Assembly (NCBI GenBank): GCA_003220225.1
Contig: QHRU01000057.1
Location: forward strand, 62,001 to 126,000
DNA: 64,000 bases
Reading direction: 5' to 3'
Source of the DNA: Candidatus Rokuibacteriota bacterium
Lineage (GTDB): Bacteria > Methylomirabilota > Methylomirabilia > Rokubacteriales > CSP1-6
This document shows positions 2 to 63,008 of this stretch, piece after piece. The notes beneath the pieces were generated by a model. It worked only from the letters and a program-made list of their open reading frames with translations, did not search any database and was not told the origin of the DNA. Within the stretch, counting starts at the first letter, position 1. The number at the start of each line of letters is the position of its first letter. Both the position numbers and the translations under genes were made by a program.

Positions 2-358
2 GACGGAGCGGAACGGTACGCGTGCTGCGCCACCGACGCGCTCGGTATCGCGCCGATGCTCGGGCTGTCCGTTCACATCGGTACCAAATGTCACCACTGC
101 CAGGCGCCTCTGAACTTCTCGGTCTCCCCGGATGCAGGGCCAGAGGTGGATGGCGTGATGGTGTGGTTCGAAAAGCAGGCCGACCATCGAGGCCGGGCCC
201 TGGACTCGCTCTGAACGACGCTCAACTTCTTCCGGTCGGAAGACCATTTGAGGGCGTGGCGTGAGACGAATCCCACGGCGCCGGGAGCAGGAGCAACGGT
301 GCGGGAGGCGTTCAAGATCGCACGTCGCGTCTTCGGAGGGCTTCTGAGCGCCGGGTGA
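2..358 (+). CDS. Organomercurial lyase (MerB)-like protein, in-frame UGA probably read as selenocysteine; 5' partial
   Basis: The reading frame runs open from the left edge to TGA at 212-214, then continues in the same frame to TGA at 356-358. It encodes 118 visible residues; the N-terminus lies outside the window. Before the first TGA, the [10 protein letters not shown] stretch matches the MerB block with catalytic Cys96 and Asp99. CHHC at residues 30-33 sits where MerB has Cys117. After it, [15 protein letters not shown] matches the MerB C-terminal block. Counting back from the FF pair, codon 71 (TGA) falls exactly on catalytic Cys159 of E. coli MerB. Homology on both sides of one TGA at a catalytic Cys, plus a hairpin at 228-243, argues for selenocysteine rather than a nonsense mutation. 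MerB cleaves carbon-mercury bonds; MerB-like relatives may do other chemistry. No other mer gene is visible. A plain pseudogene is the alternative. Confidence 0.75.
228..243 (+). promoter_or_regulatory. Candidate bacterial SECIS hairpin of the merB-like gene
   Basis: TCTTCC (228-233) pairs perfectly with GGAAGA (238-243) around a GGTC loop (234-237). The stem begins 13 nt after the TGA and the loop 19 nt after it. Known bacterial SECIS elements have a short stem 3' of the UGA within the coding region and a small apical loop with G in the first two positions; the E. coli fdhF loop also contains GGUC. The match is by eye, with no folding calculation. Confidence 0.6.
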
Positions 359-61979: not shown

Positions 61980-63008
61980 ATGCATGTCACGCTCTCGCAA
62001 CGCCAGCCTCCGCCGCTGCCGGAATTCGCGGACGAGAGCCGCATCGCCGCCGAAGGGCAGAAGGACGGCGAGCGCAACATTCCGGAGATGGGCTCCTACA
62101 CGCCCGCTCCATTCGAGCAGGCGTTGATCTCGAATGGCGAGCAAGCCGTGCAGCAGATCTTCAAGGCCGCCTCGAGCAGGATCTCCAAGCTTCGGCCGGT
62201 CGTCGAGGCGTACCAGCGCCAGCTCGACGAGCTCCAGCGCCGCATCCGGCCGATCGCCGAGGCCTACAAGGTGCGCTCGGCGGAGCTGGGGCGGGATGCG
62301 ATGATCGTCTTCCCACGAGTCTTTCACTGGGCGCTGATCGCGTTCCTGGCGGTCGGCGAGTTCCCGCTGAACACCGTCGTCTTCCGCCTCTTCGGTGAAG
62401 CGGAGTACCTGACGTATGTGATGGCCTCGACGCTGGCCATCACGATTCCGTTGATCGGCGTGTTCATCGGCGTCCACGTGCGGCACGTCGTTCCGAAGTG
62501 GCTCGGCAACCTCCTGATCGGCATCTTGACGCCGGTGGTGGTGGCGGCCACGCTCTACGCGGTCAGCCTGCTCCGCAACACGTACATCACCTCTCAGTTC
62601 TCGGGCAACGGGCAGGTCTCGGCCGAGGGCAACCAGATGGCGTACGCGCTGTTCGCCCTCAACGCCCTGGTGTTCTTCGCGGCCACCGTCGCCTCGTACT
62701 TCGCCCACGATCCCGACGAACGGCTCGACGGCTTCCATCTCTCGCTGCGGACGCTGGATCGCACGATGAACGACATCCGGACGAAGCTCTACGAGGTCGG
62801 CACCCAGCTCAACGGCGAGATCGAGCAGGCGAAGAGCCAGATCGAGCAGATCCGAGCCCTCACGAATCAGCGCGTGCAGCTCTACCGGCAGAGCAACATC
62901 CGCCATCGCCGGCTGCTGCCGCCGCCGTCATTCCGGAGGGACGCGGAGTTCCCGCCGCTGCCGTGGTGGCCGGAAGTCTCCCTGAACAATCACCACGAGG
63001 GAAAGTGA
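61980..63008 (+). CDS. Membrane protein with flanking coiled-coil regions
   Basis: A 342-residue protein. N-terminal about 100 residues are Pro-rich then helical with coiled-coil character (VEAYQRQLDELQRRIRPIAE). Four hydrophobic helices follow (WALIAFLAVGEFPLNTVVF, YVMASTLAITIPLIGVFIG, LLIGILTPVVVAATLYAVSL, and ALFALNALVFFAATVASYF). The C-terminal part after YFAHDPDERLDG is again coiled coil (EIEQAKSQIEQIRALTNQRV). 5 nt after the first gene; ATGA-type overlap with the third. Confidence 0.78.
   Translation: MHVTLSQRQPPPLPEFADESRIAAEGQKDGERNIPEMGSYTPAPFEQALISNGEQAVQQIFKAASSRISKLRPVVEAYQRQLDELQRRIRPIAEAYKVRSAELGRDAMIVFPRVFHWALIAFLAVGEFPLNTVVFRLFGEAEYLTYVMASTLAITIPLIGVFIGVHVRHVVPKWLGNLLIGILTPVVVAATLYAVSLLRNTYITSQFSGNGQVSAEGNQMAYALFALNALVFFAATVASYFAHDPDERLDGFHLSLRTLDRTMNDIRTKLYEVGTQLNGEIEQAKSQIEQIRALTNQRVQLYRQSNIRHRRLLPPPSFRRDAEFPPLPWWPEVSLNNHHEGK

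Follow-up and report, generated by a model that had tools for sequence, protein, structure and literature searches.

Gene and locus

The window, a stretch of 64,000 nucleotides that corresponds to positions 62001–126000 of contig C93, belongs to a genome of 6.03 Mb (97% complete) whose close relatives are mostly recorded as 'Candidatus Rokuibacteriota' MAGs. At its left edge, on the forward strand, lies the 3′ part of a MerB-like gene (positions 2–358), comprising codons 103–220 and the stop codon of a 220-codon gene. The 5′ part is outside the window: the GTG start codon (G000:C93:61696) is located 304 bases before it and is preceded by GGGAGGA, a ribosome-binding-like stretch. The only internal stop in the frame is a TGA at 212–214, and the frame closes at a true TGA stop codon at 356–358. 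The initial annotation of this DNA had proposed that a MerB-like frame contains the internal TGA, that it occupies the place of the catalytic Cys159 of MerB, and that the sequence 3′ of it is still homologous. These proposals agree with the Pfam MerB profile (PF03243), whose match spans the TGA (92.9 bits, cut-off 27; residues 68–192 of the protein P0002, profile positions 1–126), and with an alignment to the MerB structures 1s6l and 3f2g, in which the recoded residue, residue 173, stands opposite the first Cys of the motif SFC(C/S)HVHFF, i.e., Cys159.

Three further MerB residues are intact. Cys111 (26–28), Asp114 (35–37), and Cys132 (89–91), which align with the catalytic Cys96, with Asp99, and with Cys117 of MerB, respectively, are invariant across 23 aligned relatives. 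An AlphaFold2 model of the protein, with Cys in place of selenocysteine (Sec), obtained a pLDDT of 87.5 and a pTM of 0.86, with poor quality in the loop preceding residue 173; all 11 of its PDB matches with E below 0.001 were MerB structures (TM 0.54–0.73), the best being 3f2f (E 1.6e-11). As modeled, the window protein has the MerB fold. It scores 59.7 bits on the MerB equivalog NF009710, under the curated cut-off of 193, and Sec stands where the MerB definition requires Cys159.

TGA at a single codon across the family

A profile search of 95 genomes of the phylum detected MerB matches in 50. An in-frame TGA was present in 54 matches from 38 of these genomes (one TGA in 53 matches, two in the remaining one), and none of these 54 contained TAA or TAG in frame. 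The TGAs of the family fall in one alignment column, the Cys159 site, and this recurrence at one codon exceeds chance. Since the same codon is TGA in dozens of independent assemblies, a sequencing misread, which the initial annotation had raised as a concern, fails as an explanation. The relatives also answer its question about homologues, as either Cys or Sec is found at the aligned site: in the nearest relatives that lack a stop, L028 and L031, this residue is Cys, and both are nested within group A in the tree, which demands at least three changes between Sec and Cys (L088, L100, L103, and L104, which show frameshift-like splits, were left out of this tree).

Three groups occur among these genes: (i) group A, to which the window copy belongs (LUTTLNFF), (ii) group B (LUTGMNLFRSEEH), in which Glu takes the place of Asp99, and (iii) group C (HUPSTNFFCTEEE). 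Group B includes a distant second Sec-containing MerB (Sec-MerB) of the source genome itself (L002:1285-1995; G000:C14:56793-57092), also with Glu at this position and with no mer neighbors, which, like the gene start, is an addition to the initial annotation. Median dN/dS values, which are rough (Nei–Gojobori, saturated pairs removed), were 0.37 for the group A sequence 5′ of the TGA and 0.38 for that 3′ of it, and 0.32 and 0.36, respectively, in group B; purifying selection continues past the TGA.

SECIS hairpin

The 6-bp hairpin with a GGTC loop that had been described 13 nt past the TGA was recovered as a SECIS-type hairpin of the bacterial kind at 228–243, in which TCTTCC (228–233) pairs with GGAAGA (238–243) around the loop at 234–237. 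No Rfam family matched in the window. The codons after the TGA that form the CUUCC-GGUC-GGAAG hairpin are fixed in the Sec forms and not in the Cys forms. Among 22 group A genes, codon identity at positions encoding the same amino acid is 1.00 at +4 to +9, versus a mean of 0.51 elsewhere in the gene, and Glu in the hairpin region is encoded by GAA, although GAA represents 15% of the Glu codons in these loci. In L031, a Cys form, FFRSE is encoded as TTCTTCCGGTCCGAG, without the hairpin.

With the protein sequence held fixed, the fold at 64% of 56 sites is better than that of 95% of the synonymous versions. Similarly, in 22 Sec sites that were picked for diversity, so that the counts describe that set, 92.9% of the stem cells are paired, four of the seven pairs have changed on both sides, and the covariation score is 0.322; the paired cells and the covariation score exceed 500 of 500 shuffles and every slid control. 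Dinucleotide-shuffle folding of lone hairpins was uninformative, with a z of −1.96 for the window hairpin and values from near 0 to −0.7 after the first UGA of forms with two Sec residues, and the assessment therefore draws on the synonymous-codon and covariation results. The hairpin is under constraint at the RNA level.

Selenocysteine machinery

The initial annotation had suggested a search for the Sec genes, and all four were found in the source genome. The gene for tRNA-Sec, selC (69.7 bits; called tRNA-Sec(tca) by ARAGORN), is on contig C5 together with selA (584.8 bits) and selB (372 bits), and selD (335 bits) is on C159 (L137, G000:C159:12780-13730). The selD gene has one in-frame TGA, and SelD is probably itself a selenoprotein. 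More generally, selA was above cut-off in 52 of the 53 Sec-MerB genomes tested, the lone exception being 81% complete. It was also present in nine of 14 genomes with Cys-only MerB; the link between selA and Sec-MerB is therefore one of necessity and not of exclusivity. Three marks of bacterial selenoproteins are found for this gene, namely a TGA with conserved 3′ sequence and Cys homologues, a SECIS hairpin, and the selA, selB, selC, and selD genes in the genome.

Gene neighborhood

The window copy sits between a Meth_synt_2 gene, which has Pfam support, and an operon that, on reading the translations, was taken to encode a branched-chain amino-acid ABC transporter. No mer genes were found beside it, and no MerA above cut-off was found in the source genome. 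Across the phylum, MerA exceeds the cut-off in two of 95 genomes, neither of which carries Sec-MerB. One of the two, G082 (L166, L167), has a MerB of the Cys type, which the tree places among Sec forms. Flavoproteins that resemble MerA but score below its cut-off are repeatedly found in the phylum with in-frame TGAs, either one or two (e.g., G086:C77:745-2106 and G087:C127:14620-15984), and are possibly further selenoproteins.

Several relatives of the window copy have a different context. A divergent merR gene is present in the group A loci L053, L055, L075, L088, and L100; the best family for a representative product is TIGR02051 (133.8 bits, under the cut-off of 150.85). A merT-like gene is found at the group A loci L055 (weakly), L056, L063, L075, L084, L100, L105, and L151, a representative of which scores 21 bits on PF02411, under the Pfam cut-off of 32.9. 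Within the subtree of the window copy, the merT-like gene lies 3′ of Sec-MerB in L041/L063, L151, and L035/L056. In L152, of group D, a MerA gene (525.9 bits, cut-off 454.45) is located 5′ of Sec-MerB, with genes for MerR and an HMA-domain protein nearby. Group C genes are located 3′ of an ArsR-type regulator gene, and no mer genes were found in the vicinity of groups B, E, and F. Some weak matches to MerR on the strand antisense to MerB traced back to wrong-frame ORFs in the query set and were discounted. The proximity of relatives to merR, merT-like genes and, once, merA supports a role in organomercury cleavage.

Proposed function and alternatives

The recoding, the relation to the MerB fold, the catalytic residues, the SECIS constraint, the Sec machinery, and the mer context of relatives are supported computationally. 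We consider it probable that this is a gene for a selenoprotein variant of the organomercurial lyase MerB, with Sec in place of Cys159, which likely cleaves RHg+. In canonical MerB, catalysis relies on Cys96, Cys159, and an Asp99-assisted protonolysis (PMC4525700), and by analogy a similar scheme most likely applies to Sec-MerB. The UGA of codon 173 would be decoded as Sec by SelB and tRNA-Sec under the direction of the hairpin, which begins 13 nt 3′ of the UGA, and the resulting protein would adopt the MerB fold with a catalytic set of Cys96, Asp99, and Sec. RHg+ would most likely be held between the Cys96 thiolate and the Sec selenolate, protonolysis of the C–Hg bond assisted by Asp99 would free RH, and Hg(II) would then pass to cellular thiols or selenols. 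We further infer that the protein is synthesized, that it acts on an organomercurial, and that selenium improves the reaction.

The lack of mer neighbors around the window copy, the rarity in the phylum of MerA, which would dispose of Hg(II), the score of the MerT-like product below its cut-off, and the low NCBIfam MerB score of the window protein count against this reading. In an alternative that we regard as unlikely, though deserving of weight, the gene is a genuine Sec-MerB homologue with another role in this branch, i.e., the protein would cleave or scavenge a different organometal or metalloid, or bind a metal without cleavage. In favor of this, the window copy and groups B, E, and F have no mer genes nearby, MerA does not exceed its cut-off in any genome of the phylum with Sec-MerB, Glu occupies the Asp99 position in group B, and the related SaoL is named only an organometallic lyase (PMC13188914). 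However, the window protein retains the equivalents of Cys96, Asp99, and Cys117, and the merT-like gene that follows Sec-MerB in L041/L063, L151, and L035/L056, together with merR in other loci, argues for mercury.

It is highly improbable that the TGA terminates translation, leaving a pseudogene, an assembly error, or a truncated N-terminal protein. This is simply how standard annotation would treat the gene, and it is ruled out on sequence grounds by the absence of TAA and TAG from the 54 matches, in 38 genomes, that share a TGA at one codon, by purifying selection that is equal after the TGA, by a hairpin that is both frozen and covarying, and by the presence of the Sec machinery. Least credible of all is a reassignment of TGA to an ordinary amino acid in the source genome, for which no support was found there and which is refuted by the TGA stop of the same gene, by tRNA-Sec(tca), SelA, and SelB in the genome, and by Cys at this codon in relatives.

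Other phyla and probable forms with two selenocysteines

The carriers of Sec-MerB, as a selenoprotein form of the lyase, are Rokubacteria, a group of soil bacteria, along with some relatives in two more phyla. In the phylum of a record named Myxococcales, a one-TGA MerB is present in 12 of 379 genomes and a two-TGA form in three, and in that of a record named Acidobacteria, 14 one-TGA and five two-TGA matches were found in 396 genomes, both labels being record titles and not a taxonomic test. Group A also occurs in the Myxococcales-named record, where a transfer or a binning error is possible. L108 and L114 (QHVJ01000418 and QHVJ01000423), on contigs labeled Acidobacteria AA35, are group A Sec-MerB genes, one of them 97% identical to that of the window, and these contigs are possibly misbinned Rokubacteria.

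Nine MerB-like genes from three phyla (L085, L160, L162, L163, and L208–L212) have a TGA at both the Cys96 and the Cys159 sites, as in L210 (AAUAEDA and GYURKSVFFWSEEH). L085 comes from the window's own phylum, and four of the nine are on contigs longer than 100 kb. In eight, a 7-bp stem whose loop contains GU lies at a constant spacing 3′ of the first TGA; 98.2% of the cells of this stem are paired in the eight genes, four of seven pairs have changed on both sides, and the pairing and covariation score exceed all shuffles and slid controls. L085 has its own hairpin after the first TGA, in a different placement. The second TGA of the double-Sec forms is then followed by a hairpin that resembles that of the window. 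An AlphaFold model of a double-Sec form was poor (pLDDT 54) and was left out of the analysis. Selenium binds mercury very strongly, so that an enzyme required to hold the metal and also let it go through a selenolate would pose a clear mechanistic question, which is sharpest for the double-Sec forms.

On balance, we are inclined to conclude that Sec replaces Cys159 in at least three phyla, and that a distinct MerB-like set has Sec at both Cys96 and Cys159, with a SECIS element for each UGA and what would be an organometal-cleaving site containing two selenium atoms. The 119 prokaryotic selenoprotein families of the 2026 catalogue (PMC13188914) include neither form, and both would be dropped by surveys that require Cys159.

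Relation to known selenoproteins and mercury surveys

The window protein resembles MerB (PF03243; 3f2f, 1s6l) in its predicted fold, in the Cys96, Asp99, and Cys117 equivalents, in the FF block 3′ of the TGA, and in having relatives near merR, merT-like, and merA genes. It differs in having Sec for Cys159 and Thr for Cys160, and in scoring under the NCBIfam MerB cut-offs. The initial annotation had considered that a Sec-MerB might be novel, and this holds in part. Sec in a MerB relative is already known in kind: the 2026 review, which keeps different Sec positions apart, includes one such relative among its families, SaoL, with the motif CU (PMC13188914). SaoL (NF040728), a catalogued predicted selenoprotein, is likewise a MerB relative with one Sec, but the window protein scores 52 bits on its profile, against a cut-off of 140, and has the motif LUTTLNFF instead of CU; the other Sec-MerB groups score 31–87 bits against the same cut-off. 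The last column of the SaoL profile (159) falls opposite residue 154 of L085, its Sec at the Cys159 site, which suggests that the Sec of SaoL is probably at or next to this site. In an unsystematic look at the neighboring ORFs listed, no Sao genes were recognized. In addition, a published table lists an organic mercuric lyase, MerB2, as a selenoprotein (PMC7435645); it is likewise named as a Sec-containing MerB, in the text covered with neither sequence nor Sec position, and may be the same as the SaoL entry. Within the literature covered, the double-Sec forms and the replacement of Cys159 by Sec in full-length MerB from mer-type loci both appear to be new variants, although an earlier mention of this protein is possible.

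The merB genes serve as a readout of methylmercury demethylation potential. Gene callers that have no Sec model cut Sec-MerB at the UGA, so that the gene looks broken and is missed by mercury surveys, and at least one recent survey discards MerB sequences without Cys-159 (PMC12874090). For Rokubacteria and for NC10, a broad survey listed a single MerB apiece (PMC8261052), whereas here MerB was found in 50 of the 95 genomes of the phylum, 38 of which have it with an in-frame TGA.
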